In this document: positions 429-61,498 of the stretch, in pieces
Position numbering within the stretch: position 1 is the first letter of the stretch
Layout of the letters: the number at the start of each line of letters is the position of its first letter
Origin: a virus
Length of the DNA: 64,000 nt
Strand: one strand, 5' to 3'
IMG/VR virus record: IMGVR_UViG_3300020735_000007
Location: 1-64,000 of that record
Notes under the pieces: generated by a model
The model's input: only the letters and a program-made list of their open reading frames with translations
Database searches by the model: none
What the model was told of the DNA's origin: nothing
Program-made: the position numbers and the translations under genes

Positions 429-3020
429 TTAGCGAAATTCAATTGACTCTAGCCACCATTCAGGTAGTATATCATTACAGGTTTTCAAAAACATATTAAA
501 ATCCTGATCTATAATATAGCTCCTGGCATAGTCTTCCTTAGAACGGATGGAACGACCTAAACCCTGAATGAGAGTAAGGGCTGTTGTCCAAGAATACCAC
601 GCTTTATCTAACTCCATTCTTCTTTTTACATAAGGGTCTGCCAAGTTATTGAAAGGCATTTTCGCTACCACCTGAAACCTGGATAGATCCCCACGAAGGT
701 CCAAACCTTCGGTCATAGAGGGGCTGAGAAGCACCGTAGGCTCTGTTGAGGTCAAGTGCCTATCCACTGCATAGGCGCGAGATTGGGAGTCATGTGCGAC
801 CAATCTGGAGTAATGAGGACTTCTCCTTAAACCCTGTTGAATATGATTCATCAACTTGAACGATTGGCAATGAATAATTCCCTTTTCATTCTTATGCTTC
901 TCCAAAATACGCTCAATCTTGTTGAGGAGCTTGGGTAGAGTGGTGTCATAATTTTTGTAAGACATAGAGCCAGCGGGGGTGAAAATGATTTTCCTGTTAT
1001 CTTGAGCAAATTCTGAAGGCAGACTCATGTAGCCACAATCCTTGACTGAAATTCCTAGATTGCGAACAAAAGTGCGAGGGTCCAGAATGGTAGCAGACAT
1101 GAACATGATTTTTTCAGCCCGACTAAAAAGAAGTTCCTCAGAGAAAACATCCCCACGAAGCGGCTTGATACCCAAACCGTCAGTCTGATGAATAAACCAC
1201 ATCTCTGACTCTGATTCTAGAAATTTACCAAGGTTACTCTTGAAAGAGGAGAGATTCATTTCCTTCTTAAGCAAAGCCATCAAACTTCCATGTCCTTGTA
1301 GAGCCGCAGCGATTTCTTCCTTTAACTTAATTCCATAAATGTCAGCGGCTTGAATAACTGTATGCTCTACCCAATATTTAGTTTCAGGAATAGTAGTAAG
1401 TGGTTTAGTGGGAAGTTTAATATCAAATTCTTCTAGACGATTAGCTGAAATACCAATTTCAGAAAAAGCGATCAAAACATTTTCAGTATTATGCGCTTCA
1501 TCAATAATTATGAGCTTACGCTTCGGTAGTTGCCGCTTGAACATTGAGTCTGTAAGATAATAGGCAAAATTAGTAATACCCCTGGGAGAAGCCATAAAAG
1601 CTGCCTTGGCACTTCTGTAAGGGCAATGTTCACAGATAGTTCCAGCCAGTTTATTCATAACACTGCCGATTTCACAGTTAGATTCCTGCTCCCCACATCG
1701 GTAGTTAGAGGCACCACGAAGATCAGCTAGACCAATACTTCCAAATTCAGACGCATATTGATCCTGTAGAATCTTTTGAGAAGTGAGGATCGTTCCTCCA
1801 GGTTTCAAGGGGGGTTCAACAGGACAATCCGCAGCCCACCCTAAAGCTGCAATAGAAAGACCGGAATTGTGAACTACTGTAAAATCCCCCAAAAGAAATA
1901 AGTGGTCCCCATCAACACCAAAACCATAATAATCCCCTAGTCCAACAGGTTCCACTTTAAAACCAGTAACAAGCACACTCTTTTTTTGCTGTCTCATTTT
2001 TGCTTGTTTTCTTGGGAGGAGAGTTGGGATCAAATGGATATCCCCACTTATATTCCCGCGATAGTAAACCCCCCCATTTCCTGTTTGACAAGTTTTATGG
2101 CAAGGTTTAACATACACACTGAACCCAAGAGAACGGGCTATAAATGAAATATCATCTGCTAAATTTTTATTAACTGATGAAAATTCAAATGTATTAGAGG
2201 CTAAACTCCCATCAGCATCTAAATAACCTGCGAGTAACTTAAGTCTGGAAATTCTAGATGCGGTTTTGAAAGACAAAGGGATGGACTTGTTAGAAGAAAT
2301 ATCTAGTTTCTTTAATTCGTTTAATAAAATATTTCTATCTTTTCTACCTCCCATAGCCTGTGTAGTTATATTCCAAGAAGTAGCCTTAGATCCATTGTTA
2401 TATGCAGTCAAACTAAGGCCAAAATTTGAAGCTAGATTGCTTAAATAGGTTTGAATTTCTTTATCCGCAGTAGTAACTTCAGTCAACCTTTTTGAAGAAC
2501 CATCCCCCAACCATAATCCAATATAATAAGCAAGTTCTTTTAAATCGTGTGTTAATACACTCTCAAAATCTACGCCAGTTCGATAAAGTTTAGCATGATG
2601 CTTAAAATTGTTGCTTCTAGCCAAATAATCCGACAAAGTTAGGTTAATAATTTGTTTATGGTTTTCGGTCATTTTTACAGAAAGAATGTGGGAGGAATTG
2701 ACTACAAAAGAGTCGCCTTTCACTGGAGTCACCCTAAATAATTCATCTCTGCCTTGAGATAAACTGATCACCTTACGAGGAGTGGAGTCAGGCCCCATTA
2801 CAAGCTCTCCTTCCTTAATTTCTTCTACAGGTTTGATTACCCCATCAAACATAAGGATGGGAGTGCCTTTTGCGAAACACTTTCCAATACCAGTAGGTAG
2901 TTCAAAAATAGAAAACTTCTTACCCTTCTCTTCATCCACTACAAATTTTTCCAGAGCTTTTTCCTGAGATGGTCGAATCTCAGGAAAAGGGAAATGTGAT
3001 TTCAACTGTGCCAAATCCAC
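429..3020 (-). CDS. DinG/XPD-type superfamily 2 helicase, interrupted by an intein
   Basis: ATP-dependent DNA helicase of the Rad3/XPD/DinG group, expected to act in replication or repair. The Walker A loop PTGIGK|S is split by a 338-residue intein after residue 47. The C-terminal extein carries four cysteines in the iron-sulphur arrangement of this family (YRCGEQ, NCEIG, ICEHCP), a DEAH box (IIIDEAHN) and motif VI (QGLGRSIRS). Without the intein the protein is about 525 residues. The start is GTG, directly after the TAA of the upstream gene, with GGAG 6 bases before it. The helicase works only if the intein splices out, because the nucleotide-binding lysine and serine are otherwise separated. 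Confidence 0.93.
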   Translation of the reverse strand: MDLAQLKSHFPFPEIRPSQEKALEKFVVDEEKGKKFSIFELPTGIGKCFAKGTPILMFDGVIKPVEEIKEGELVMGPDSTPRKVISLSQGRDELFRVTPVKGDSFVVNSSHILSVKMTENHKQIINLTLSDYLARSNNFKHHAKLYRTGVDFESVLTHDLKELAYYIGLWLGDGSSKRLTEVTTADKEIQTYLSNLASNFGLSLTAYNNGSKATSWNITTQAMGGRKDRNILLNELKKLDISSNKSIPLSFKTASRISRLKLLAGYLDADGSLASNTFEFSSVNKNLADDISFIARSLGFSVYVKPCHKTCQTGNGGVYYRGNISGDIHLIPTLLPRKQAKMRQQKKSVLVTGFKVEPVGLGDYYGFGVDGDHLFLLGDFTVVHNSGLSIAALGWAADCPVEPPLKPGGTILTSQKILQDQYASEFGSIGLADLRGASNYRCGEQESNCEIGSVMNKLAGTICEHCPYRSAKAAFMASPRGITNFAYYLTDSMFKRQLPKRKLIIIDEAHNTENVLIAFSEIGISANRLEEFDIKLPTKPLTTIPETKYWVEHTVIQAADIYGIKLKEEIAAALQGHGSLMALLKKEMNLSSFKSNLGKFLESESEMWFIHQTDGLGIKPLRGDVFSEELLFSRAEKIMFMSATILDPRTFVRNLGISVKDCGYMSLPSEFAQDNRKIIFTPAGSMSYKNYDTTLPKLLNKIERILEKHKNEKGIIHCQSFKLMNHIQQGLRRSPHYSRLVAHDSQSRAYAVDRHLTSTEPTVLLSPSMTEGLDLRGDLSRFQVVAKMPFNNLADPYVKRRMELDKAWYSWTTALTLIQGLGRSIRSKEDYARSYIIDQDFNMFLKTCNDILPEWWLESIEFR
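1866..2879 (-). mobile_element. Intein with LAGLIDADG homing endonuclease, inserted in the helicase P-loop
   Basis: Residues 48-385 of the helicase ORF. The intein begins at Cys48 (CFAKGTPILMFDG, splicing block A), has a block B NSSHILSV with its histidine, two LAGLIDADG-type helices (LAYYIGLWLGDG and LLAGYLDADGS) and ends DFTVVHN, with Ser386 as the +1 nucleophile. All residues needed for self-splicing are visible, and both endonuclease motifs keep an acidic residue, so it looks active. The site is the Walker A loop GIGK|S, a conserved insertion point that inteins favour. Confidence 0.93.
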
Positions 3021-6739: not shown

Positions 6740-9700
6740 ATGTTCAAGTCAACTTTATTGAGTCTTCTAGCCGCAGCTTCACAGGCAAAGAAGGAGGCAC
6801 TGGAGAAAAAATATTTGGTTTCCCAAGGATTCGTAGAGATCTGTGCGAATATAGATCCAACTCCAAACGGTCAATATACCGAATGGCTAGTAAAAGTCTT
6901 GAGACATGACGAAAATGTGGGGCCAGCACTTCAAGATGAATTAAAAGATGCTCTGGAGGAGTTTGGACGTTTAAAAAATAGTGCTGCCTGGGCTACAGGT
7001 TTGATTAATGGTAAACCCAAAAATAATATTCTTTCCTATGCCAATTTTAACGATCTTATCAGTGTTATACAAGAATCTTCTCCTGATGACTATTCTAAGA
7101 AAGAGCGAGAGAGAGATTTACAGAGAAGAAGGAAACAATATTTAGCAGAAGGCTGTGAAGAGATCGGCAGTCCAGGTGAAGGTGTCGTATGTTATGAGCC
7201 GACTACTGTAAGAGCCGTGCAATTGATGGGGGAAGGTTCTCATTGGTGTACTAAGAACCCAGGCTATGCCCAACGTTATTTAAGTAGGGGAGCCATTTAT
7301 GTCTTTACTACAGAAGAAAAAGAAAGTTCTTATGAATCAGATCGCTATCTTCAGATTCATGTTCCGGATGATTCTGTCACAGGATTTGAAGCTCAAGATG
7401 CAGATGGTGAGGATATAGGAAACTGGGAAATTGAAGATAAATGTTATCAAGTCAATGATGAATGGTGGGGAATAGTTCAATGGTTGTCTAATTATGATAG
7501 GGATTTGGAAAGATATATCCGAGAAGGATTTATTTTTAATGATATTAATGATATGGCTCATTTTGAAAAATGTGATCAATGTGATGCATATATGGAAACA
7601 GACAGCTACGATACTATTTATGTGAATAATGATGACTCCCCTGATAAAGAAAGCCATAATTTTTGTTGCGAGGGATGTTTTAAAGAGTTTTATAATGATA
7701 TAATTGAGAAAAAAGTAAAGGCATTTGTTGCAACTATTCCAGGAAAAGAAGAAAGAAATCAAAAAGCTATGGATGATGCCGAGGAACTCATTTATGGGAC
7801 AGGCTGGGATCCAAAGGCCACCAAAGTATTTAGAGCAATGCATGAAGCAGCTATCCGAATGGGTCTCCCCAATACTGTTAACCATCACTATGCTCTTGAT
7901 TGGTATTTAGCTAATCTGACATCAGGTATTAGAGCTTTTGAAAATGGGCAGAGTGACAGAGTAGAAAAAGTGACCCCCGGATTAACTCTAGGGGATTATA
8001 AATGGGCCTTGAAAGTCCTTCAGCCGGTTTATGATGAACTGATGACTTATGATACGCTTTACGATGACATACTAGAATATGTTAAGGACCAATTCACCCC
8101 TACGAGTACAGATATTGATGATATTATTGAAAATAGTGGAATGGGCAAAGTGCAAGAGGAATCAGCACCAGAAATAGAGGGTGAAATAGCAACAGATGAA
8201 CTGGAACCTACCTCTGAACCTTCTGAAAAACTGAAGAAATCTTCACTTTCTAACTTTAAATCTGCTCTATTGAAATTTGCCGCCGCTTCGGAAGCTAAGA
8301 AAAAAGCTCTTGCTTCTAAATATCATCTCCCTCCTCATGGGGTAGATACTCTATCTTTAGTTGACCCTTCTCAAAATGGAGAATATTTAGAATGGTTATG
8401 TAGAGAGACTAGAAAAGCTATGGATGATCCAGAAGGTAGATCTTCGCTAGCCGGAACAATGAAACGAGATGATATTAAAATTATGCTTGAACGTTATGCT
8501 ATGCTAAAACGTAGTGCTAATTTTACTGGTGAAAAAGATATCATGAAGTTAGGTCTTTCAGATCTTAAAGAAATATATGACACGGCTACTAGAGCCGACC
8601 TATCCAAAAATGAGCAGGGTAGAGAATTAATTAGAGAGAAGGATAAGTATCTCAGAGATGGTTGTGAGCCTTTAGCTAAGACCAGAGGTTACTCCTTCTA
8701 TCGTTGTACCACTCCAGAAGCCTTGGTGCTTATGTCAACAGGTTCCCATTGGTGTACACAGGGGGAGGGGACCGCTGAAGCCTATCTGGAACGTGGTCCT
8801 CTCTATGTTATTACTCAGGACAGTGGCACCAATGAGCATTATGGTTCTGATCGCTATGCACTCATCCGAGTCCCGACCAAAAATATTCAAGGTCAAGGAG
8901 TTGGTGCTATTGAATGCCAAGATGTAGATGGTAGAAATATTGGAGATCAGATATTTAGTAGGGATCCGTTTAGTGATAGTGCTGATGTTGGGCAAAAATA
9001 TGATGTAGATTCAAATTACTGGTGGATTTTTGAAACACTTGCAGAATTTGATCCGAAGATTAAAGAATCGATGGAGCAAAAAATTATCTTCCCTGGTGCT
9101 TGGGATATTAACAATGATAATGATCTCTATGAAGATCATGAAGATCAGGAGCTAACCAATTGTGCTAATTGTGATGAGCCTGTGGCAGAAGAAGATGCCA
9201 TCTATTTATCTGGCAATCCCTATTGTTGCAGTTATTGTGTAAGGGAGTATTTCCGACCAGCGATAAATCGTTTAATAGATAAGTTTCTGCCGAATGCTGA
9301 TGAAAATAAAAAGAGGAGAGCTAGAACCTATATTGAGGAACAACTAAACATCAATGGTTATGATGATCTTGAGGCAGAACGTGAGAAAATTTTGGTAAGG
9401 GGTGGGTTCTGTCAAAAATGTGAAGATTGCCATGAAGCTATACCAGCGGGAAATGAAATTAATTATAAAAAAGGCTCTTTTTGTGCTGTATCCTGCTTCA
9501 TTTCCTACTATATGCAGGATATGGATGATACCATGGCTTATATTCAGAAAAAATTAGGAATGGATGAAGATTCTCATTTCCAGATGTACGATGAAAAGAT
9601 AGCCGAGAGAGCCATAAGAAATGAAACTATGGGAATTGACTCTGGATTCTATCAGGCAACACTTCAAGTTCTTTTAGACACGAGGCAAATTACGGAGCAA

Positions 9701-10450
9701 CAATTGAGAGAATTATCAGTTAAAAAAGCGAGTCTGCTAATCAAACAAGCCTATGGTGGCATGGAAAAATACTATCCGAGAGAGCAGTTCATCGAAGAAC
9801 TTCAAGAGTTTATCTTAGAAAATCTCTCAGGGATGACTCCACTAAGAAGCTTTAAGAAACATATAGAAGACCAATTTGGTCAAGTTTACCACTTAGGCAC
9901 AACTTTCAAACTGGACAAAGATTTGTGGGATAAGGCTATGCAGGGCCTTCGTAGTAAGAAGCAAGTAGAAGTGGTTACGGCCATCACTCCCTATTCAAAA
10001 GCCGCCAGTGTCAAGCAGGGCTACATTACTTATATTAAAAAGGTAGCCGATGATAGCGATGAAATTATTGAAGAAACTAAGAAAGAGCATTACGGCCAAG
10101 AGGTTATTATGGATCTTCATGATGTTGACCCAGATAAATTCCAGACCCACATCTTGAAAAAGTTTGCCGAAGACCTCTGTGATGAAATTGATATGCAGCG
10201 AGGACCAATTTACAGTTGGGGCCAGGATAAGTTTGAAGGAACTTACAAAACCCATCCCAAGAAAGATGGAATCAGCGTAGTTCAGTTCCTTTACGAATCT
10301 TCTATAACTATTCATGCCTTGGATGAACTTCAGAAAATTTTCATTAACGTCTTCTCTTGCAAGGATTTTGATCCAGAAAAAGCCAAGGCATTTGCTTTGA
10401 AAACTTTGGGTGGAAATTTAGTAACAGAACATAACATAGTGAGAAATTAA
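6740..10450 (+). CDS. Large duplicated WCT-domain protein with three zinc fingers, 1236 aa
   Basis: Function unknown. The protein is an internal duplication. Each unit has an N-terminal helical part with a D-P-(T/S)-x-N-G-x-Y-x-E-W signature (residues 39-49 and 542-552), then a domain centred on GSHWCT (169-171 and 671-673) followed by Y...RG(A/P)(I/L)YV and a D-R-Y strand, then a treble-clef-like zinc finger (C278, C281, C309/C310, C313 and C808, C811, C829/C830, C833). A third finger follows at about 894-919. Two other genes here (51590 and 53330) share the WCT core, and 53330 shares the N-terminal part. The ATG has AGAGGT 6 bases upstream. First of three plus-strand genes with only 2-3 bases between them. 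Confidence 0.85.
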   Translation: MFKSTLLSLLAAASQAKKEALEKKYLVSQGFVEICANIDPTPNGQYTEWLVKVLRHDENVGPALQDELKDALEEFGRLKNSAAWATGLINGKPKNNILSYANFNDLISVIQESSPDDYSKKERERDLQRRRKQYLAEGCEEIGSPGEGVVCYEPTTVRAVQLMGEGSHWCTKNPGYAQRYLSRGAIYVFTTEEKESSYESDRYLQIHVPDDSVTGFEAQDADGEDIGNWEIEDKCYQVNDEWWGIVQWLSNYDRDLERYIREGFIFNDINDMAHFEKCDQCDAYMETDSYDTIYVNNDDSPDKESHNFCCEGCFKEFYNDIIEKKVKAFVATIPGKEERNQKAMDDAEELIYGTGWDPKATKVFRAMHEAAIRMGLPNTVNHHYALDWYLANLTSGIRAFENGQSDRVEKVTPGLTLGDYKWALKVLQPVYDELMTYDTLYDDILEYVKDQFTPTSTDIDDIIENSGMGKVQEESAPEIEGEIATDELEPTSEPSEKLKKSSLSNFKSALLKFAAASEAKKKALASKYHLPPHGVDTLSLVDPSQNGEYLEWLCRETRKAMDDPEGRSSLAGTMKRDDIKIMLERYAMLKRSANFTGEKDIMKLGLSDLKEIYDTATRADLSKNEQGRELIREKDKYLRDGCEPLAKTRGYSFYRCTTPEALVLMSTGSHWCTQGEGTAEAYLERGPLYVITQDSGTNEHYGSDRYALIRVPTKNIQGQGVGAIECQDVDGRNIGDQIFSRDPFSDSADVGQKYDVDSNYWWIFETLAEFDPKIKESMEQKIIFPGAWDINNDNDLYEDHEDQELTNCANCDEPVAEEDAIYLSGNPYCCSYCVREYFRPAINRLIDKFLPNADENKKRRARTYIEEQLNINGYDDLEAEREKILVRGGFCQKCEDCHEAIPAGNEINYKKGSFCAVSCFISYYMQDMDDTMAYIQKKLGMDEDSHFQMYDEKIAERAIRNETMGIDSGFYQATLQVLLDTRQITEQQLRELSVKKASLLIKQAYGGMEKYYPREQFIEELQEFILENLSGMTPLRSFKKHIEDQFGQVYHLGTTFKLDKDLWDKAMQGLRSKKQVEVVTAITPYSKAASVKQGYITYIKKVADDSDEIIEETKKEHYGQEVIMDLHDVDPDKFQTHILKKFAEDLCDEIDMQRGPIYSWGQDKFEGTYKTHPKKDGISVVQFLYESSITIHALDELQKIFINVFSCKDFDPEKAKAFALKTLGGNLVTEHNIVRN

Positions 10451-10452
10451 CA

Positions 10453-11466
10453 ATGCCTATACCTAGTATCAACGGTGTGATGATTATCCCCACTGGCCTT
10501 GGCTGTTCTTTAGGTGGTGACGCAGCCTTTAATCCAGGATTGAAACTTATAGCTGGATGCTGTAAAAAATTAGTGGTGAATCCAAATTTATGTAATGCTT
10601 CGGACATTAACGAACAAACTCCCAATTGCCTTTATGTCGAAGGTTCCATCATTGATAGGTTCTTAGCTGGTTCAATCAATCTGAAACCAGTAAAAACTCA
10701 TAACAAAATTCTCTGTGTAGTAAATTCCCCTATTACTCCAGGTAGCATCAATGCGGTTAATGCCGGTATATGGGGCCTTGGGGCTGAGATTGAACTTTTA
10801 GAACTAACTACCCCCCTGATCATGAAAGCTCATCTAAATGACGATGGAACTGCGGGGGGATCTGCCAGTGGTTTAATAGCCCTTATTGAACAAATTAAAG
10901 ATAAAGATTTTGATGCTTTGGCTATTCACACCACTATTGATTGTGACGAAGAACTTGCTAATAGTTATTGGGAGGGAGATATTACAGTTAATCCTTGGGG
11001 AGCGATTGAAGCTCAAATTAGTAAATATATTGCTTCAGCCATTGATAAACCAGTCGCTCATGCTCCAATGGATTTTCTTCAAGATAATCTTTATAACAAG
11101 GTAGTGGTTAAACCCTCTCAATCTCCAGAGATTATATCCAATACTTATCTTTTTTGTGTTTTAAAGGGATTACATCAAAGTCCTCTGATTGATCTGATTA
11201 AAAATCCCAAGAATATATCTAATGAAGATATAGATTTCCTCCTAACCCCCCATAACTGTTGGGGAAGTCCTCATATCTCTTGTCTAAATCACGGTATCCC
11301 TATCATAGTCGTAATGGAGAACACTACTTGTCAGAGTAATTTCTCTTATCCTGAAGGGATCAGAGGGAACAAGAAAGTCGTCTTTGTAGAAAATTATTTA
11401 GAAGCTGCGGGACTCATAATGTGTATGAATGCCGGGGTATCATATAAAACCGTTATTTTAGGATAA
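10453..11466 (+). CDS. DUF3326-like protein, 337 aa
   Basis: The start IIPTGLGCSLGGDA, the PNLCNAS strand and YVEGSIIDRF match what I know of DUF3326, a family of unknown function found mainly in cyanobacteria and plants. It is close to full length for that family. Conserved cysteines, glycine loops and a late NHGIPIIVVMENT segment suggest an enzyme. It begins 2 bases after the WCT gene stop and ends 3 bases before the Cys-cluster gene, so the three plus-strand genes probably form one transcript. A phage copy is unusual. Confidence 0.6.
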   Translation: MPIPSINGVMIIPTGLGCSLGGDAAFNPGLKLIAGCCKKLVVNPNLCNASDINEQTPNCLYVEGSIIDRFLAGSINLKPVKTHNKILCVVNSPITPGSINAVNAGIWGLGAEIELLELTTPLIMKAHLNDDGTAGGSASGLIALIEQIKDKDFDALAIHTTIDCDEELANSYWEGDITVNPWGAIEAQISKYIASAIDKPVAHAPMDFLQDNLYNKVVVKPSQSPEIISNTYLFCVLKGLHQSPLIDLIKNPKNISNEDIDFLLTPHNCWGSPHISCLNHGIPIIVVMENTTCQSNFSYPEGIRGNKKVVFVENYLEAAGLIMCMNAGVSYKTVILG

Positions 11467-11915: not shown

Positions 11916-13052
11916 TTACTGACGGATAGCCTGACACGCTTCTTCAAAGGTAAAAGTTCCAGGATTTTTATCCGGGTAGTATTGTTTATACATTGCTAAA
12001 ATTTCTTTTGGAGATTTAAAGCCTAGCTTAGACATTAAGAACCGAACATCCTTAGTGTCGTTTCCCTTCTCCTCTTTCCGACCTGAATCTAACTTATTAG
12101 CAAATAAATATTCAGGATTTGGAACTCTAACTGTTAAATTTGGAAGGGTTACAGGGGTATCATATGTCACATTGCTAGGAAGCCAGATGTAAGGTTGAAC
12201 TCCATTATTCATCCATTCGTGATGAACATGAACTCTATCTCCAACTTCCTTAATCAACTCATTCATAATCTCCTCATCCAAATCTGGACTTGAAGATTTA
12301 TAATCATAGAACACATCCACATCCTTTACAGGGCGGGAGAAATCGTCATAAGATAAAAGAATAGCGGCCCCACCAAGAGCCGTTACCTGCGCCTTCATAT
12401 CACATTCACCTAAGGCATCATTCAAAGCTTGAAGGGCTTCCATGAGCTTACCACGGCTCATTTCCCCTGATGCTTGTTTCTCCATGAAATCTCCTTTAAG
12501 GTATTTTTCAGCCCATTCATCACAAAGAGGATGAGGAAGTTTTAGTATCTTTGAGGCATATCTTTCAGCTAGCTCTCCCCCTGCTTTTGCTATAGCGGGT
12601 TCCCCTAGTGGAAACGGTCTTCCTCCTAAACAATTAAATGCGTAAGCGTAAGCAATTCTAGGGTCACTAGCTATGATAGGTTCACCAGGGGGCCAGCCAC
12701 AAGCATCTCTATCAAACCCTTTTCCTGGGGTGTAACAACGTTCAGGTCTATTATAAGCGTAGGAATAAGCCCATTGAGGAGATTTAATAATGTCCTCCTC
12801 AGAGAAATGTTCTAAAAATTTTTTCAAGGGTCCAGAAGGAGTGAGAATGACTGGCATAATCCTTTGTCTTGTAACAGGGTCATACTCAGCAAAACTATAA
12901 TTCTGCATCCCGTATTCTGCCAATTCTTCATAAGGAACGGTGTAACCAATGAAGCCAATAGGGTTCTTTTCAGATAAACGCTTCTTGAATTCCCCTTTTA
13001 GGAATTTATATTGCTGTAAGGAGCGAAATATGTTCCTATCTACAATTTTCAT
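11916..13052 (-). CDS. YA-repeat plus nucleotidyltransferase (DUF6036-like) protein, 378 aa
   Basis: The N-terminal half carries repeats of the form (A/S)YAYA...GRPFPLGEPAIA, shared with the neighbouring gene. The C-terminal half, from about residue 195, looks like a minimal nucleotidyltransferase: ALGGAAILL, then RPVKDVDVFYD, giving the paired aspartates of the GG...DxD motif. Such domains occur in DUF6036 and AbiEii-like proteins. ATGA overlap with the upstream gene indicates coupled translation. The link between repeat and enzyme is unexplained. Confidence 0.7.
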   Translation of the reverse strand: MKIVDRNIFRSLQQYKFLKGEFKKRLSEKNPIGFIGYTVPYEELAEYGMQNYSFAEYDPVTRQRIMPVILTPSGPLKKFLEHFSEEDIIKSPQWAYSYAYNRPERCYTPGKGFDRDACGWPPGEPIIASDPRIAYAYAFNCLGGRPFPLGEPAIAKAGGELAERYASKILKLPHPLCDEWAEKYLKGDFMEKQASGEMSRGKLMEALQALNDALGECDMKAQVTALGGAAILLSYDDFSRPVKDVDVFYDYKSSSPDLDEEIMNELIKEVGDRVHVHHEWMNNGVQPYIWLPSNVTYDTPVTLPNLTVRVPNPEYLFANKLDSGRKEEKGNDTKDVRFLMSKLGFKSPKEILAMYKQYYPDKNPGTFTFEEACQAIRQ

Positions 13053-13672: not shown

Positions 13673-14347
13673 TTAAACTTTGATTACAATCGGGGGATTC
13701 ACAGGACGATACTGCCGATTGCAAGTAGCAGCGTTCACAAATTGAGTCTCTCCCTGAAACTTCTGACCGTAGCCTTCATGAATATGACCGAAGACATGGA
13801 AGCGGGGTTTGACTTCGTGAATCCTGTCTCTCAGTGCTGCGCTCCCCAGCCACTTCTGCTTAAAATCTTGACAGACTTCATCCAGAATACCAAGTGGAGG
13901 GCCATGAGTAACCAAGACATCCAGACCCTCAGGAATCATGCCATAAATATCTTTGAGCTTGTCCTCGTATTCGTTGAACGCCCACGCATGAAAAAACGGA
14001 GTGTGGGGTGTCGCATAGATAGTGATAGTTTTGGCAATTTTAGGATCATAAAAAATTCTAGCCTCATCTTGAAGATAGATGATTCCGTTATCTTGCATGA
14101 TGGTTCTAGCCAAATGTGGTTGATCTTGGAATAGAAAATCGTGGTTTCCGGCGCAAAAAATCCTATGACGATATGGGGTTTTACCAAACCACTTAGCAAA
14201 ATTTTCAATTTCTACAATGCTTCCACGATAGGTGGCATCCCCTGCATGGATAATCATATCTCCCTTGGGAAGCTTAATGGTATTATGCTGTGTGTGAGTA
14301 TCCGCTATGCAAACTATTTTCCAATTTTTCTTCAGTCTTGGTGCCAT
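13673..14347 (-). CDS. Calcineurin-like metallophosphoesterase, 224 aa
   Basis: Motifs in order: ADTH, HAGDAT, CAGNHD, VTHGPP and FGHIHEGYG, which together make the two-metal site of this superfamily. The closest general resemblance is to compact single-domain phosphoesterases; the substrate cannot be read from the sequence. The start at 14347 has AAGGAG, while the ATG six codons upstream has none. The first 65 bases overlap the 3' end of the C39/GNAT gene in another frame. Confidence 0.88.
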   Translation of the reverse strand: MAPRLKKNWKIVCIADTHTQHNTIKLPKGDMIIHAGDATYRGSIVEIENFAKWFGKTPYRHRIFCAGNHDFLFQDQPHLARTIMQDNGIIYLQDEARIFYDPKIAKTITIYATPHTPFFHAWAFNEYEDKLKDIYGMIPEGLDVLVTHGPPLGILDEVCQDFKQKWLGSAALRDRIHEVKPRFHVFGHIHEGYGQKFQGETQFVNAATCNRQYRPVNPPIVIKV

Positions 14348-15305
14348 TCTTTCTCCTTTGTTCATTCAAGTCCATCAGGGTAACAGCAAACCCATCTTCA
14401 CTACCGGAAATTACCTTTCGGCCATACTTGACCCAATTCTTGACATTCTTGAGACTGGCGAGATGCATACCCCAAACATAATCCACCCCCTCCATTTCAA
14501 CCGGAATAGCTCTTAGAGCCGCCCCGATTCCCTGGCCCCTAAACTCTGGAAGAAGGAAAAGAGCGACACCTTGAATGCCAACCTTATCCTTGTAGTTTTC
14601 TCCTGAATCATTCAAATAGAAACTACCAATCTTGTTGAATTCAAGGAAGTAGCCACCGATGATTCTGTTCCTGTAAACAGCCACATAAGCATTATCAAGG
14701 CTTTCCATGGCCCACATAACAGAGTTATAAAACCCATTTGCAGTGCCACCAATCTTGTCCTTGAAACTACCAAAACCAGCATCAAGGAGAGCTTCATCAA
14801 CTTCATGGGGTTCAATCTTGCGAATTTCAACGGTTTCATCGTTAAAAGACTTTTCAATGATGAAACCATCATATTCTCGACAGCCCCAAATCTCATCCAT
14901 GAAAGCTTTGGAACAAACCCAATAGCGGCCCATGGGGTCAGCAATAAGATAGTTCTCCTTGTCCTTACCATAGACTAGGAGCCAATGCTTACATCCATGA
15001 ATAGCTGTTCTCATGAGAAAGAGCTTGTTTTGCTTAAGGGCTTCATCCACCAGTTCAAACGGCTTTTCAGCCTGGAAGGTACGGGTGTAAGGAATCTCCA
15101 AAGCAGTCAAACCGTTAATCATACCCTCATGGGTTGTCCCAGTGGCAGGATTAGTAAGGAAAAGCTGCTTGACCTCTTCTAACGTAAGGTCATTAGCTGG
15201 AGCATATACATTAAGCATCATCTTAGCGGCTGTTGCTCCGCACGAATATCCATCGGGTTGAGAAATAAGCTCTGGCACCGGATGGATAGAAATTGTCTTG
15301 TTCAT
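14283..15305 (-). CDS. C39-like peptidase fused to a GNAT acetyltransferase, 340 aa
   Basis: Residues 1-150 look like a papain-fold C39-type peptidase: QPDGYSCGATAAK with the catalytic-type cysteine, a histidine in CKHWLLVYG, and ADPMG supplying the aspartate. Residues 160-320 carry a GNAT domain with a GVALFLLPEFRGQGIGAAL acetyl-CoA-binding stretch. Cleavage and acetylation in one protein suggests modification of a host protein or peptide, but that is inference. AGGAGG precedes the ATG, and the promoter at 15323-15353 is immediately upstream. Confidence 0.75.
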   Translation of the reverse strand: MNKTISIHPVPELISQPDGYSCGATAAKMMLNVYAPANDLTLEEVKQLFLTNPATGTTHEGMINGLTALEIPYTRTFQAEKPFELVDEALKQNKLFLMRTAIHGCKHWLLVYGKDKENYLIADPMGRYWVCSKAFMDEIWGCREYDGFIIEKSFNDETVEIRKIEPHEVDEALLDAGFGSFKDKIGGTANGFYNSVMWAMESLDNAYVAVYRNRIIGGYFLEFNKIGSFYLNDSGENYKDKVGIQGVALFLLPEFRGQGIGAALRAIPVEMEGVDYVWGMHLASLKNVKNWVKYGRKVISGSEDGFAVTLMDLNEQRRKNGTKTEEKLENSLHSGYSHTA

Positions 15306-15391: not shown

Positions 15392-15766
15392 ATGAATTTT
15401 CATTCCCACTTTCTCACAGCTAAAGCCCCATACAAAACTAAAGAATTCAACGGCTTCACTATCCTAATTGGAAGATCAGCCGCTGATAATGATATTTTGT
15501 CTATGGAGATTGCACAACCAAATGATTGGTGGCTTCATACCGCAGATTGCCCAGGTAGCCATATTGTCATTAGGAACCCTGAGAACTTATCTGAAATACC
15601 CTCTGAAGTGCTACAGGAGGCCGTAAGAGCCGCTGTAGAAAACTCCAAGGCAAAGGGACAGGCAGGAGTTAAAGTTGTCTTAGGAAAGGCTGGGGATCTG
15701 TCTAAACCCAAAGGGTCAGCCGTTGGGGAAATCCACATTTCCAAATACAGAATCATCAAAGCTTAA
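15392..15766 (+). CDS. Stand-alone NFACT-R (DUF814) protein, 124 aa
   Basis: Matches the NFACT-R domain of RqcH/Tae2 proteins, which bind RNA in ribosome quality control: GRSAADNDIL, then PNDWWLHTADCPGSHIVIR, an AVRAAVENSKAKG helix and a K-PKGSAVGEIH ending. The rest of RqcH (NFACT-N and coiled coil) is absent. Free-standing copies exist in bacteria, but their role is unclear. Here it may act on stalled ribosomes or tRNA; this is inference. GAGGG lies 5 bases before the ATG. It is the only plus-strand gene in this part. Confidence 0.75.
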   Translation: MNFHSHFLTAKAPYKTKEFNGFTILIGRSAADNDILSMEIAQPNDWWLHTADCPGSHIVIRNPENLSEIPSEVLQEAVRAAVENSKAKGQAGVKVVLGKAGDLSKPKGSAVGEIHISKYRIIKA

Positions 15767-51589: not shown

Positions 51590-52744
51590 TTAAAAATTAT
51601 CTACAATAAAATCTTCAAGGGATTTTGGAAGAGAGGTGTAACCCGCAGCAGCCAGGGAAATGATATAGCTATTCAGAGTTTCAGTGTTAAACTTATCATA
51701 CACATCTTTTAGCTCTTGGCGAAGATCAATGGAGACTGCCATAATGGTCTGAACTCTCCCTTTATCATTACTGCTATTCCTATTCCAATCTTCAACTAAT
51801 TTTTCTTGGGGAGTGACACGGACCAACGCCTTTAGCTGATCCTTATCAAAAGGAGGAGGAATCGGGACCATCTCAGCCAAATGGGGATCGACTGTCTCAG
51901 CTTGGGTTAAGAGGGGAACTAGTTCAGCAGGAATTGAGCTAATTGTGGAAAAATCAAAATCTACACCTCTTTCAACAGATACAGCTTCAAGATTGGTAAA
52001 TCTTCCTGCGGCTTGTTCATCTCCAGTTGTCCAGACTACCACATTCTCAGGAGGAATAATATCAATTTGATTTGGACCTTTCTGATGGGCTAAAGCATAG
52101 CGAGTCCTTCCTCCTTTAAGAGCTACATAAAAGGGTCCGTTATTAATATAGGTGGTCGCTGGTCCTCTATCTTCACCAGTACACCATGTAACTCCTGTCT
52201 TGCTATTATTACAAAGTCTTCCCATAGCTTTAATGGCGGCGGCGCCTTTTGTTTGCTCATCACATTTATAAAGTTCCCAATCACCCACATGAGCGATGAC
52301 TGTAGCACCAGCATTAACTATTGCCATGTCTTCTGGAGTAAATCCAGGTCTTTCAACTTCGGCCTCTTCATCAATCTCACTCTTTAACTCAGCGATAGTT
52401 TTTCTAAACTGACCGCAATCAGAATCAGGACCAGTAGGAAATTTTTCACGGTGTTTTGCAAGAAGTTCCTGAATACCGTCTTCATCTTGACCATTTTCTG
52501 AAATTTGAAATTCTGGTTGAGCTTGAAACAGCTTTTTACAAAGGTAAATTAAGTAAGGCTTAACCTTAGTTCCTAGACCAGCAGGAAGCCAACTCTCTAG
52601 AGTGGTCATAACAGAGTCTAGTTTAGCTTCGTCCTCAGGAAAATTGGGATAAGCTGGTTTATCTTGATAAAGACGTTGAATTTCAGTCTTTATAGCTTTG
52701 GACCAAGCTTTTTTGATAAGATAATCAGCAGTAAATTTAAACAT
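51590..52744 (-). CDS. WCT-domain protein, 384 aa
   Basis: Shares the WCT core with the 6740 and 53330 proteins: WELYKCDEQTKG, then GVTWCTGEDRGPATTYINNG at about 184-203, PFYVALKGGRTRYALAH and VVVWTTGDE. It lacks the zinc fingers and the DPTPNG N-terminal unit. The start at 52744 has GGAG; a longer reading overlaps the upstream gene. It lies in the virion gene string, suggesting a particle-associated or late function. Confidence 0.75.
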   Translation of the reverse strand: MFKFTADYLIKKAWSKAIKTEIQRLYQDKPAYPNFPEDEAKLDSVMTTLESWLPAGLGTKVKPYLIYLCKKLFQAQPEFQISENGQDEDGIQELLAKHREKFPTGPDSDCGQFRKTIAELKSEIDEEAEVERPGFTPEDMAIVNAGATVIAHVGDWELYKCDEQTKGAAAIKAMGRLCNNSKTGVTWCTGEDRGPATTYINNGPFYVALKGGRTRYALAHQKGPNQIDIIPPENVVVWTTGDEQAAGRFTNLEAVSVERGVDFDFSTISSIPAELVPLLTQAETVDPHLAEMVPIPPPFDKDQLKALVRVTPQEKLVEDWNRNSSNDKGRVQTIMAVSIDLRQELKDVYDKFNTETLNSYIISLAAAGYTSLPKSLEDFIVDNF

Positions 52745-52755
52745 ATAAGGCTCCG

Positions 52756-53340
52756 TTAGAAGGCTAATTGCCAAGAAATTGTGAAACTAACCCCATCAGG
52801 AAGAACCAGAGATTGAAATCTTTTGGAATTAATTAAGACTACAGAAGCTGGAGAAGGGCTGGCTGGATTAAAAAACGGTGCAGAGGAAAAATCCCCCGAA
52901 GTTGGGGCAACCCCACCAATCAAACCTAATTCACGAATGGCGGTTCCTTGAAGGGCTGGGAAAATAGTCGTAGATACATTAGTTTGAAAATCAATAGTAG
53001 TGGACCAAGCGGTTGCTACTCCGTTAGCATCTATAAAATTTTTAGCGGAGAAGGCAATTCTTCCTGGACCGGGGACAGGAAATTGGGCTAAAAGGGAGTA
53101 ATCAGTGGCAATAGGGAGAACTAGACCACTTTCATCCCAATTAGGATCCCCAGCACCCATGGCTAGACCCCATACAGAATTGGTGACAGAGCTTGCATTC
53201 ATCATAAGTTGAGAGAATAGCCAAGATGTTCCGTTTAGAATAAGATTTTTTTCATCTAAAAGAATATTGGAAGGATTTTCTTCCTCGAAAATTCTAATTC
53301 GACCAGTCAAGCCTTGGGTATAGTAATCTTTACAATTCAT
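52756..53340 (-). CDS. Putative virion structural protein, 194 aa
   Basis: Beta-rich, glycine/serine/proline-rich sequence without charged clusters. LNGTSWLFSQLM and VWGLAMGAGDPNWD resemble a phage structural family often found near baseplate or fibre genes. It is coupled to the upstream WCT gene by an 11-base overlap, with GGAG before the ATG. The exact role is not known. Confidence 0.6.
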   Translation of the reverse strand: MNCKDYYTQGLTGRIRIFEEENPSNILLDEKNLILNGTSWLFSQLMMNASSVTNSVWGLAMGAGDPNWDESGLVLPIATDYSLLAQFPVPGPGRIAFSAKNFIDANGVATAWSTTIDFQTNVSTTIFPALQGTAIRELGLIGGVAPTSGDFSSAPFFNPASPSPASVVLINSKRFQSLVLPDGVSFTISWQLAF

Positions 53341-56300
53341 GCGATTTCTCCAGTTCTCTTAATAATACTGAAATTATATTTCTCTTACCGGCTTCTTTTT
53401 TCTCATTAAATTTATCTAGAAGTTCTGAAATCTTGTCGGCTGGAATAAGCTTACGAAGATATTCAATAGCGAAATCAGCGTTTCCACAAAGGATTTTTTC
53501 CACATCCTTATCGGCCAAGCGACCAGTAGCTCCAATATATCTGAAGATGGGGTCTTTCCAGTAATTTCCAAAATAATGACTTGTGAAAATGCTGGTCCAA
53601 TTAGGGCCGGTGATAAGGGTTTTAAGTTTATCATCCAAAGGTTGCCAGTGCCCTTTTTTCATTTCAATGCTATAATTAACCATCTTCTCCAAATTGCCAC
53701 CATCATTACGGTTGGCGAGAGAGAGGGCTAGCACGCTGGCCTCGTATTCAGGCCAAACGGTGTCTTTATAGATGAATTTTCTATAAGCCTCTAATGTAGT
53801 GTTTCCTATACCACTGATAAATATAAGTTTTTCTCCCAATTGAGGCCAAGTCTTTGCCTTATTTTTCAAATAAACAAAAGCGGCTGAAGGATTTCTGTCA
53901 ATAATCCAGGCTTGATATGCGGGAGAAACTTCATCAATAAATTCATAATATTCTGATACTTCGCTCTGTTCGATAGAGGGTGAAGTCATAATAAAAGCTT
54001 CAGTCTTCTCACTAACTTTTGGTTTGGGAGGAAGTGGGGCTGGACCAGTAGTGCCATCTGGATTAAGCTGTTGAGGTTGTTGACGTTTAGTTTGTTCCCA
54101 AGCACGGACTTCCTGTCCCCACTTTTCAAATTCAGCCTTAGGAGCGAAACGAGTTCTGGTTGCAGCACCTCCGGGTCTATCTACTTGTCTAGCGGCCCTT
54201 CCTTCTCTAATCTCTGTCATTCTCTCTTCGGCTAAAGCGTTTATCCAACCAACTTCTTCCATATCCCAAGCTTCAATTTGGTCTTTAACATGTTTCAATT
54301 TAGTAAGAGAAGCAAGATGTTCCTTAATTGGTTCTTCGGCAAGACGTTTAAATTCTGTTCTGGCCGTTTCTTGAACTCTGCCATTGGTGCTTATTTGAAT
54401 AAGCTTATATTGAGCATTGATAAGCAGGGCTAGATAATCTGTGTTACTTAGAGTTTCTTGTTGTTCTTGAATCATATTAAATTCTCTTGTAATTTGAGGA
54501 ATTACAAAAGAATTGATAAATTCTGAGTGGGCATTTATCCCCTTAACCCCCAACACAGTAGCTTCATCTTGAATTTGAGTGCCCTGAGAAAGAAGTTGCT
54601 CAGTTGATAAACCCTTTGTGCCTAAATCGATATATCTTTTTTGGATTATTGGTTCTGCTTCCTTAGCGAAAGCAGTAGTGACAGCATTAGTGGTATAATT
54701 TCCTCTAATATAGGGATCTTCAGGAGTACGAAAGGATGTTTTAAGAGCCATTAGCTCAGATGTGAGCTTGGCAGGATCATCCACGTTTTCTGAGACTAAT
54801 TTATCAATAGCTTGCTTAAGTTTTGGGCCAAGAATCTGATTACAACCTGTTTCAACTGTTTCTTGGGCCAAATCTCCTGCTAGATTTATGGCAACAACTT
54901 CCATTTCTTTCATCTTTTTCATTAAATCAGAAATAATCAGATCCGAAGGGATCTCGGCATAGAAATTTGCCATGACCTTTTTCTTAATTTCTGTTTCTTT
55001 TTCTCTAATGATGATATTAACGTTTTCGTCAGAAGGAAAGGCATGTTGAATACTTCCCTTGATATCGTTAAGTTTCTCTCTGAGAGTCATATAATTGGTG
55101 GGGGTGTAAGTAGATAGTTCCGTTTCTAAATTAGTGTAGATGCCTTTGATGATGGGACGAACCACTGATTTGATAATGTCAATAAAACGTCCCGCTGCTT
55201 TATCTGCCCCAGCATAATTAAGACCTTTACCAGAAGCGTCTGATCTCCAACTTTGCCCATAAAAAGAATCTCGGATACCCCCCACTAAAGTTCTGGCGAT
55301 CTCTAAGGCTTTGGGATCTTTAGCAGCAGCCAGGGACTTCATTTCAGCAAACGTAGCATCAAAGTTTGTCTCTTTACGGTATAAAGCAAAAATTTTATCA
55401 AATAAAGGAGGGAGATTAACCATCATGGCCCTTTGATCATCATCAAATACACCCCTTCCAGTAACTCCGACTATATTGGTAGCCCCCTTATCAAAAAAAT
55501 CTTTTTTGAAATCGGCCATGGTCGGGTAGGTGGACAATTTTTCATTAAGCTTCTTTACATGTGGGTTCTCATCGGCAAAATCTTTGATCAACTCTCCGGT
55601 TCTTGGGTATTTTAGGATAAGGGCAGTGAGTTCATCAGGGTCGGCATGAATATATTTACTCTTAACGAATAATAGTTCTTTTTCTCTAAATTCCGGACTA
55701 CGTTTCCAGTAATCTTTGTCAAGAGAAAGAACCTCACTCAAATATTTTAAAGTTTCAGCTCCATCCATATTAGGGGGACTGAATTGCTCAGTAACTTTAA
55801 CTAAATCAGGCTCACTAGGTACCGCCTTAAGAATATCATAAGCTCTTTGGTCAATCATAGTGGTTTTCATGAAGGCAGTATTAAAGCGATCCATGAATTG
55901 AGGGTTTTCATGACCACCGTTAGCGGTTCTTCCTCCAGGCATATATTGAAAATAAGGCTTCCCATCTACGAAACAAACATAAATTGGACCGGTAGTGATA
56001 TAATGCTTTGCAAAACTAGGATCACCAGGACGAGCCGTACACCAACTAGCTTTTCCTGCCTTGCCTAATTCCCACAAGCTCTGCCAATCATCTTTTGGCA
56101 CTTTCCAGAGGATTGCTCCCTGACCTTCGTAAATGATAGGAGCGGAAACTTCCGGAATAGAGACTTCATTGGGATCTTTAAAGGCCAAAACTGAAGAAAG
56201 AAGGGTCTGGTAGGAATATTCTTGAATGTTATTGGAAAGTCCAGTAGGAAAATCAGGTGTCACCAACCCTCTCCAGGCTGCTTTGTTCCTATCTCTATTA

Positions 56301-56566
56301 AATTTGCTAAGAGCCGCCTTCAAACCATTGGGGCCTAAGGCATCTTCAGGTAGATGGAATTGCGCATCCCTAAGCCATCTCTGAACAATCCATTCGGCAT
56401 AGGCACCATTGGGAGTAGGATCAGCGGCATCAACTTCAGCAAGCTGTTCTTCAGTGGCATGGTATCTCCCCATTAAAAATTCTTTTTTCTGAGGGGTCAT
56501 GGCAGCTAGAAGCATGAATTTTTGCTTCTGCATGGCATCAAATATAGTGAGCGCACTTAATTTCAT
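53330..56566 (-). CDS. Large WCT-domain protein, 1078 aa
   Basis: The N-terminus has the DPTPNGAYAEW signature (49-59) shared with both halves of the 6740 protein. The WCT core follows: ILWKVPKDDWQ, GKASWCTARPGDPSFAKHYI (WCT 175-177), TTGPIYVCFVDGKPYFQYM. The remaining 800 residues are mostly helical, with a proline/glutamine-rich linker near 810-850. ATGA coupling to the upstream gene. The length and place among virion genes would fit an ejected or tail-associated protein; the activity is unknown. Confidence 0.8.
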   Translation of the reverse strand: MKLSALTIFDAMQKQKFMLLAAMTPQKKEFLMGRYHATEEQLAEVDAADPTPNGAYAEWIVQRWLRDAQFHLPEDALGPNGLKAALSKFNRDRNKAAWRGLVTPDFPTGLSNNIQEYSYQTLLSSVLAFKDPNEVSIPEVSAPIIYEGQGAILWKVPKDDWQSLWELGKAGKASWCTARPGDPSFAKHYITTGPIYVCFVDGKPYFQYMPGGRTANGGHENPQFMDRFNTAFMKTTMIDQRAYDILKAVPSEPDLVKVTEQFSPPNMDGAETLKYLSEVLSLDKDYWKRSPEFREKELLFVKSKYIHADPDELTALILKYPRTGELIKDFADENPHVKKLNEKLSTYPTMADFKKDFFDKGATNIVGVTGRGVFDDDQRAMMVNLPPLFDKIFALYRKETNFDATFAEMKSLAAAKDPKALEIARTLVGGIRDSFYGQSWRSDASGKGLNYAGADKAAGRFIDIIKSVVRPIIKGIYTNLETELSTYTPTNYMTLREKLNDIKGSIQHAFPSDENVNIIIREKETEIKKKVMANFYAEIPSDLIISDLMKKMKEMEVVAINLAGDLAQETVETGCNQILGPKLKQAIDKLVSENVDDPAKLTSELMALKTSFRTPEDPYIRGNYTTNAVTTAFAKEAEPIIQKRYIDLGTKGLSTEQLLSQGTQIQDEATVLGVKGINAHSEFINSFVIPQITREFNMIQEQQETLSNTDYLALLINAQYKLIQISTNGRVQETARTEFKRLAEEPIKEHLASLTKLKHVKDQIEAWDMEEVGWINALAEERMTEIREGRAARQVDRPGGAATRTRFAPKAEFEKWGQEVRAWEQTKRQQPQQLNPDGTTGPAPLPPKPKVSEKTEAFIMTSPSIEQSEVSEYYEFIDEVSPAYQAWIIDRNPSAAFVYLKNKAKTWPQLGEKLIFISGIGNTTLEAYRKFIYKDTVWPEYEASVLALSLANRNDGGNLEKMVNYSIEMKKGHWQPLDDKLKTLITGPNWTSIFTSHYFGNYWKDPIFRYIGATGRLADKDVEKILCGNADFAIEYLRKLIPADKISELLDKFNEKKEAGKRNIISVLLRELEKSHEL

Positions 56567-60586: not shown

Positions 60587-61498
60587 TTAGGCAACGGAGG
60601 GGTTGAAGACCTGAACACCAGAGGGGTTGAAGACCAAGAATCCGGCGATTTCAAAGATTGAGAATCCAATCTGGCGAAGGTCGGGGCGGTCAGCAGAGAG
60701 AACGGTAAGAGGCACACGTTCAGGAATAACACCAAGGAACTCGGCGTCAGCTAGAATGTAGACATTTCCGTAAGTAACCTTTCTGGATTGGAGAATGGTG
60801 GCTCCCCAAAGGTAACCCATGATACCAGTCTTGAGTAAGTGGCGCTGAGTTTCACGATCAACGGTAGTATCAGTCCACTTAAGGATATCTGTATAGTTAC
60901 GAGGATTCATGAAAAGGTAGGCAACACTTAGATCGTGACGCTGAACCTGACCGAAACAATCAGCTAGATCGTTAACATCAACACCAGCACCAGAGGCTCC
61001 AGCGAGAGTAACGTTATAGACAGGATCATCGGGGGATTTACCAGTGGCAGCGGTGGCAATATTGTCAAAGAGGGAGAAGATGTAAGCATCTTCAGTGGCT
61101 CCAATTTCAGCCTTGGCTAGATTGAGGGCGCGAGAAACGATATCGAATCTGCGTTCCTTGATCTGAGTGATAGGAATCATTGGGTTAGCGGTGATTTCAA
61201 AGGTAGGAACGGTAACACGAAGAGGATTAACCAACTTCACGATATCGCCGCCCTGTTCACCAACTACGAAGGCTTCCACGAAGGAGCGTCCGGTTTCGTC
61301 AAATTCCTTGTCGTAGATGGGTAGAGCGCCATCGGGAAGGGTTTCGACCATGAGTGCTTTACGAGCGATACTCATGTAATCGCGTCTACGGCGAAGGCTG
61401 GGGCCTAGAGCAGTAGCTAGTTTCTGGCGACCAGCAGCGGTCTTAAGGATCTGACCTAACTGAGCGGTCTGAGCTTGGGTGCGGGATAGATTAGCCAT
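60587..61498 (-). CDS. Major capsid protein, HK97-fold type, 303 aa
   Basis: Layout typical of compact HK97-fold capsid and encapsulin-like shell proteins: a helical N-arm, RSFVEAFVVGEQGG, EITANPMIPITQIKERRFDIV and a spine helix with EIGATEDAYIFSLFDNI, then FLVFNPSGVQVF at the end. No long delta domain. GAGGAG precedes the ATG, and the gene has its own terminator, as expected for the most abundant virion protein. Flanked by a decoration-like gene and, further upstream, protease and scaffold genes. Confidence 0.8.
   Translation of the reverse strand: MANLSRTQAQTAQLGQILKTAAGRQKLATALGPSLRRRRDYMSIARKALMVETLPDGALPIYDKEFDETGRSFVEAFVVGEQGGDIVKLVNPLRVTVPTFEITANPMIPITQIKERRFDIVSRALNLAKAEIGATEDAYIFSLFDNIATAATGKSPDDPVYNVTLAGASGAGVDVNDLADCFGQVQRHDLSVAYLFMNPRNYTDILKWTDTTVDRETQRHLLKTGIMGYLWGATILQSRKVTYGNVYILADAEFLGVIPERVPLTVLSADRPDLRQIGFSIFEIAGFLVFNPSGVQVFNPSVA

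Follow-up and report, generated by a model that had tools for sequence, protein, structure and literature searches.

What is the function of the large protein encoded at positions 6740..10450 (plus strand) of a viral stretch of 64,000 nucleotides, positions 1 to 64,000 of the IMG/VR record IMGVR_UViG_3300020735_000007 and hereafter called the window? The protein of 1236 amino acids (aa) contains two copies of a core with the motif W-C-T, and this WCT core recurs in two further genes. The answer that we favor applies to the family: the WCT module appears to be the N-terminal part of phage proteins that reside inside the head and are probably ejected, with a PcfJ-like core and variable tails, a reading that we hold to be probable, though by no means secure. 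The original prediction, made from the letters of the window, had recognized the repeated core but overlooked the likely capsid-targeting link, the distant relation to PcfJ, the variable repeat tails and a SpeD-like domain in the 1236-aa protein.

The WCT module and its family

Four WCT segments are spread over three window genes, as had been predicted. In the 1236-aa protein a helical module (6740..7147, aa 1-136, with the motif KNNILSY), supported by an AlphaFold2 model and the family alignment, precedes the first core (7154..7399, aa 139-220, with W169, C170 and T171), and the arrangement is repeated with an internal helical module (8210..8660) and a second core (8657..9019, aa 640-760, with W671 and C672). 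Both cores are followed by a CxxC...CxxC segment, the first at 7571..7680 (aa 278-313), zinc-finger-like by pattern only and lacking an over-threshold match in Pfam, the second at 9161..9240 (aa 808-833); a third Cys-rich segment lies at 9410..9520 (aa 891-927), and the SpeD-like domain forms the C terminus. The 1078-aa protein (53330..56566, minus strand) consists of a helical module, a single core (55832..56149, W175) and a long tail, and its gene is located in the block of the major head protein. The third gene, for a 384/394-aa protein, is found at 51590..52774 on the minus strand, with its core at 51965..52297 (W187). Note that the coordinates originally given for the family, 6740-10450, hold for the gene of the 1236-aa protein, but the other two genes fall outside them.

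At the DNA level the window has exactly four occurrences of TGGTGYAC, one at each WCT site, and each copy continues with the predicted pattern Y-x3-G-[PA]-[ILF]-Y-V (YLSRGAIYV, YLERGPLYV, YINNGPFYV and YITTGPIYV). The unit DPTPNG-x-Y-x-E-W is indeed common to the 1236-aa and the 1078-aa protein, as DPTPNGQYTEW in the first half of the former and DPTPNGAYAEW in the latter, and as the variant DPSQNGEYLEW in the second half of the 1236-aa protein. A profile of 121 relatives, with this virus excluded, was then searched against all six frames of the window. It matched the 1236-aa protein at an E-value of 1.3e-18 over two copies (domain values of 1.8e-13 for the first and 6.5e-5 for the second, the latter improving to 7.8e-13 with paralogues) and the 1078-aa protein at 1.4e-5 (domain value 4.1e-5, or 2.3e-11 with paralogues), with reversed decoys giving a best E-value of 1.5. 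Three copies are therefore well supported by the profile. The copy in the 384-aa protein reached 0.12 with the same profile, 0.0064 in a leave-one-out search once its three paralogues had joined, and 2.5e-12 with a profile including the copy itself; it is therefore the most divergent member. Outside the window, a longer contig of this virus (139.8 kb) ends with a fifth WCT gene, which starts with MAMFLSRLLIAELRVDQI and has DPSPKG, KKDIGQF and GWCTAAN.

The suggestion that the motif occurs in other large phages was confirmed on a broad scale. A tblastn search with the 1078-aa protein led to a relative adjoining the terminase in members of the Arenbergviridae, Paride and PA5oct among them, and scans with this terminase-adjoining protein and three DNA patterns yielded about 209 loci with 200 distinct cores, 125 of them below 70% identity. 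The carriers are mostly giant phages and, by fold, also giant viruses; many phages possess two to four WCT genes. In nearly all members a helical stretch of about 100 residues, which includes DPT-x-N-x-[KY]-x-x-W and KKDINQY, precedes the core of about 100 aa, and because this layout is near-universal the DPT unit belongs to the WCT module, the two forming one two-part N-terminal module. The tail that follows may be only a few residues long or exceed 800, with LRV, HEAT, LRR, ankyrin, pentapeptide or DUF4116 repeats and in a few cases helix-turn-helix or GNAT domains. Beyond the four repeats of the window, sequence comparison thus defines a real, large and unnamed protein family of giant phages.

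No model in Pfam, PHROGs or NCBIfam names the WCT core of the window proteins. Of 23 family members, 15 are matched by phrog_17056 and 14 by phrog_28193, two PHROGs whose function is not annotated, with E-values down to 1.8e-13; up to E 1 they give no match to the window proteins. A literature search with WCT motif strings found nothing, and 11 matches to KKDINQYK in bacterial genomes were all due to chance. Two observations on gene arrangement may be added. At loci L214 and L197, four WCT genes or domains lie inside about 13 kb of one phage contig, the paralogues having expanded with differing tails. In nine contigs (L089, L144, L158, L164, L173, L124, L138, L101 and L075) a conserved, uncharacterized gene of about 265 aa (56-71% identity) comes after a WCT gene of about 600 aa; a divergent gene of about 330 aa is often found upstream.

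N-terminal leaders and the head

In bacteriophage T4, gp21 cleaves after [L/I]-x-E, and the capsid-targeting leaders of internal proteins comprise 10-19 residues (PMC9026906). The WCT relatives start in a comparable manner, with MKLFEVFTLYE/DK, MRLYELFQSNLFE/DK, MKFSEIILE/NR, MRFNKHILLE/GR or MRAKQFILE/YS, where the slash marks the position after the glutamate. Under a looser rule, [LIVF]-x-E followed by G/A/S/N/D/Y/Q/H with the E at residue 9-21, such a leader is present in 87 of the 105 non-redundant members whose start is clear (83%), mostly with the E at residue 9-10, versus 18.7% of shuffled leaders. At the family level a leader of the kind known from T4-type capsid-targeted internal proteins, about 10-20 residues long and ending in [L/I]-x-E, is thus found. 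A stricter rule retains 71 of 173 members (41%), versus 6 of 547 neighboring genes (about 1%) and 12 of 2293 internal methionines. Peptidase S77, the T4-type prohead protease, is encoded in 23 of 37 carrier records.

Three sets of phages add to this picture. In phage G230 the leader is found on 6 of 121 genes and on none of 591 internal methionines, and the six comprise two WCT genes (MRARHFIIE/Y and MRAKQFILE/Y) and four unrelated ones, for example MRATEFIIE/S. In Paride the head genes have the same sites (MKINDIITE/G, MTVKFEHILNE/Q and FLVE/N in the major capsid protein), and the PA5oct counterpart of Paride_0032, the one other leader gene of this phage group traced outside the head cluster, is annotated as structural, as is the WCT protein of PA5oct itself, EST35_0205, by electrospray ionization tandem mass spectrometry. 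The same sites recur in core proteins encoded near S77, as seen in nine additional phages. A side observation in G230 concerns a ParB-like protein of 123 aa (IVIDHNGVIIDGNHRAFKA; positions 110433-110804, or 5252-5623 of L093), with the same head-targeting-like leader as the two WCT genes.

The likeness to the internal head proteins of T4 (IPI-III and Alt) thus consists in a short N-terminal leader ending in [L/I]-x-E, in a leader common to unrelated proteins of one phage, as in G230, in the occurrence of S77 in many WCT genomes and in the annotation of one WCT member in the virion. Similarity of the mature parts was not found, nor was it expected, and most WCT proteins are larger. In the mechanism that we propose, giant tailed phages would load proteins with the DPT/KKDINQY helical part and the WCT core into the head. 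Where a T4-type prohead protease is present, the short leader would take the protein into the prohead core and would then be removed after [L/I]-x-E, as in the internal proteins of T4; the mature protein would stay with the DNA and probably enter the host at infection. There the variable tail, be it of HEAT, LRV, LRR, ankyrin, pentapeptide or DUF4116 type or, rarely, an enzyme, may engage a target, and the core would provide a PcfJ-like fold in which the cysteine serves fold or ligand.

The most serious competitor, although we consider it unlikely, is that WCT proteins are ordinary cytoplasmic phage proteins and that the L-x-E near their start is the first turn of a conserved helix. In its favor, the structural model of the first window copy is helical from residue 2, the helix is retained in the internal second copy of the 1236-aa protein, [L/I]-x-E is absent from the window copies, and the neighbors of WCT genes are mixed, with head, replication and modification genes among them. 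Against it, the leader is also carried by unrelated proteins of G230, the spacing between start codon and E is nearly constant in many members, and the PA5oct protein was annotated from virions.

Several findings nevertheless weigh against internal head proteins as the general explanation. Shuffled leaders still conform to the looser rule in 18.7% of cases. A comparison of leader and S77 by record gives 18 of 20 versus 6 of 11, which is not significant (p = 0.067), partly because several records are fragments. The label 'structural' is common in the PA5oct region in question, where it is given to 8 of 14 genes. In the virus of the window neither an S77 nor an S78 nor a ClpP-type protease was detected (records of 100.9 and 139.8 kb, possibly incomplete), and its three complete WCT genes start with MFKSTLLSLLAAAS, MKLSALTIFDAMQKQKFMLLAAM and MFKFTADYLIKKAW, having no [L/I]-x-E leader: the copies begin with LLAAAS or LLAAM or have no leader. 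The internal copy of the 1236-aa protein keeps the same helix, and some of the leader may therefore have a structural role. Outside the window, LIAE/L is present in the fifth copy at about residue 12.

Two of the three window WCT genes sit in a head and structural block with the major head protein (60587..61498, minus strand; phrog_2522, E 1.1e-43). The packaging reading can be extended to the window phage by family and position only, and since its copies have no leader and no S77 is detectable, this extension is weaker than the reading for the family. Beside the major head protein, an acidic protein of 411 aa (62465-63700, minus strand) has a scaffold-like composition and RVAAS near its start, comparable to AAAS in the WCT genes. 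A motif AA[ASGM] near the start is found in 4 of 63 window genes (two WCT genes, the major head protein and the adjacent acidic gene); we do not rely on it, as it was chosen after the genes had been seen and picked no further head genes outside the window.

A wider version of the internal-protein reading is conceivable and distinctly more speculative. The WCT module might be a general chassis for head cargo in giant phages. Module or leader would then bring hundreds of proteins into the capsid, their tails unrelated to one another and in the present case including a pyruvoyl decarboxylase, and these proteins would be delivered together with the DNA; in this view the ankyrin- or FNIP-repeat relatives in giant viruses of eukaryotes would represent an ancient offshoot.

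The core fold, its cysteine and enzymatic alternatives

Structure prediction for the first window copy (model 1; AlphaFold2 with 87 sequences, predicted local distance difference test (pLDDT) 85.6, predicted template modeling score 0.74) yielded an all-helical N-terminal part and a core of the order ββ-α-Cys loop-α-βββ. An independent model of a typical core (model 2, pLDDT 85.4) agrees with it. In searches of viral models (BFVD) both retrieved the family itself first, including members from giant viruses of eukaryotes, and then proteins named PcfJ-like. Among the former, A0A481Z016, A0A1V0SEJ3 and A0A481YW50 from Marseillevirus LCMAC201/202 and Indivirus, named ankyrin or FNIP repeat proteins, have WCT cores with 36-46% identity. 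PcfJ-named phage proteins were the best-ranked named group outside the family, with E-values of 7.8e-4 to 0.15 for model 1 and 0.012 to 0.44 for model 2, all against predicted models.

At the sequence level PcfJ is among the commonest Pfam names on the relatives, yet the matches are weak (2 of 23, best E 1.9e-4), and PF14284 (PcfJ) does not match the three window proteins at the Pfam gathering score. With an earlier PcfJ profile, built from eight sequences, no profile match was obtained. A profile of 24 sequences aligns around the same cysteine (P 0.011; score 19.7 versus at most 17.7 in 200 column shuffles). In both groups P-x-[ST], [EY]G, [HW]-C-[VT], Y, G and a hydrophobic strand succeed one another, but HCV in PcfJ is replaced by WCT, the end Q-x2-G-x2-N is replaced by D-x2-D, and the WCT proteins have an N-terminal helical module of their own. 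PcfJ sequences keep the H before the C in 23 of 24 cases, the C in 24 of 24 and Q/G/N in 21-22 of 24, and the WCT proteins lack these H-H-C-V and Q-x2-G-x2-N motifs. Distant homology of the WCT core and PcfJ is therefore likely, while membership in the PcfJ family is not indicated. In the literature searched, no paper ascribes a tested function to PcfJ.

No match to the core was found in the PDB by sequence, and none by fold under an E-value of 0.001; matches of the profile to dPPR entries proved to be a repeat artefact of the helical part. A clear match to a solved structure is thus lacking.

The cysteine had been taken to suggest catalysis or ligand binding. Among 23 sequences chosen independently of the motif, invariance is limited to this C and a later Y. 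In the 125 non-redundant cores, a D at the core end is conserved in 91% and the best-conserved His in 32%; note that this set was collected partly with GTKWC patterns, and its G, T, K, W and C frequencies are therefore inflated. Two members (loci L034 and L035) have F in place of the W (KFCIA). Invariance of the cysteine thus stands, but catalysis is not supported, as no histidine is invariant beside it, and the residue rather fits one that is needed for the fold or for a ligand than a demonstrated nucleophile. That the core should be a cysteine enzyme, a thiol hydrolase, a transferase or a ligase-like protein with the Cys as nucleophile, we consequently regard as improbable. Conservation of the Cys throughout the family and in all 24 PcfJ sequences, together with the nearly invariant Y and D, would suit such an enzyme, but a conserved His is lacking, no Cys enzyme was matched in the PDB by sequence or by fold, and the Cys lies in a loop between two helices, where it could be a core residue.

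A genuine enzyme domain may be present at the other end of the 1236-aa protein, where aa 1122-1235 (10103..10444, plus strand) resemble S-adenosylmethionine decarboxylase (AdoMetDC; PF02675, E 2.7e-13, 50.7 bits versus a cut-off of 25; phrog_3125, 5.3e-12). The NCBIfam equivalog for SpeD scores 29.4 bits, below its cut-off of 75.65. The domain aligns with the AdoMetDC of T. maritima (1vr7/1tlu), and S1187, H1192 and C1207 align with the pyruvoyl Ser, the catalytic His and the Cys of that enzyme (S63/H68/C83). The Ser, His and Cys of class 1b AdoMetDC (SpeD) are thus kept, here in a domain fused to the end of a WCT protein, and self-cleavage is predicted between E1186 and S1187 if the domain is active. 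Functional homologues of SpeD are known from phages, and some of these decarboxylate ornithine or arginine (PMC9992855, PMC10407285). It could be argued from the above-cut-off match, the retained residues and these precedents that the 1236-aa protein is chiefly a polyamine enzyme, in which the WCT and Cys-rich parts only place or regulate a SpeD-type decarboxylase. We find this a little less plausible still than a cysteine enzyme, as it covers only one of the three window genes and no other SpeD fusion was found among the WCT relatives. Locus L093 has a free-standing SpeD relative at a distance of about 3.5 kb from its two WCT genes.

Finally, that the core is a degenerate GNAT acetyltransferase is highly improbable. 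GNAT chains fill most fold rows of model 1 (best Z 5.3, rmsd, the root mean square deviation, 3.9 over 98 residues), but the likeness was not reproduced in model 2 (best GNAT row Z 3.0) and no GNAT profile match was obtained.

Neighboring genes and implications

Five further window genes are of note. A DinG/XPD-like helicase at 429-3020 (minus strand) holds an intein with a LAGLIDADG endonuclease (PF05203, PF14528, PF13307). Immediately downstream of the 1236-aa gene, 10453-11466 (plus strand) encodes a DUF3326 protein (PF11805, 7.5e-54). The gene at 11916-13052 (minus strand) encodes a 378-aa protein with an AbiEii-like nucleotidyltransferase end (PF08843), whose first half resembles a neighboring protein of 193 aa. 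The product of 14283-15305 (minus strand) joins a C39-like peptidase domain and an apparent GNAT motif (PEFRGQGIGAALR) in one protein, of which Pfam matches only C39. At 15392-15766 (plus strand) a stand-alone NFACT-R RNA-binding domain of 124 aa is encoded (PF05670, 1.3e-12), as found in ribosome quality control factors of the RqcH/NEMF type.

For most giant-phage genes no role is known. If WCT proteins are indeed internal head proteins, many that are now annotated as hypothetical would become candidates for an internal or ejected protein, open to testing in cultured phages (PA5oct, Paride), and the widespread, uncharacterized PcfJ fold would gain a concrete biological setting.

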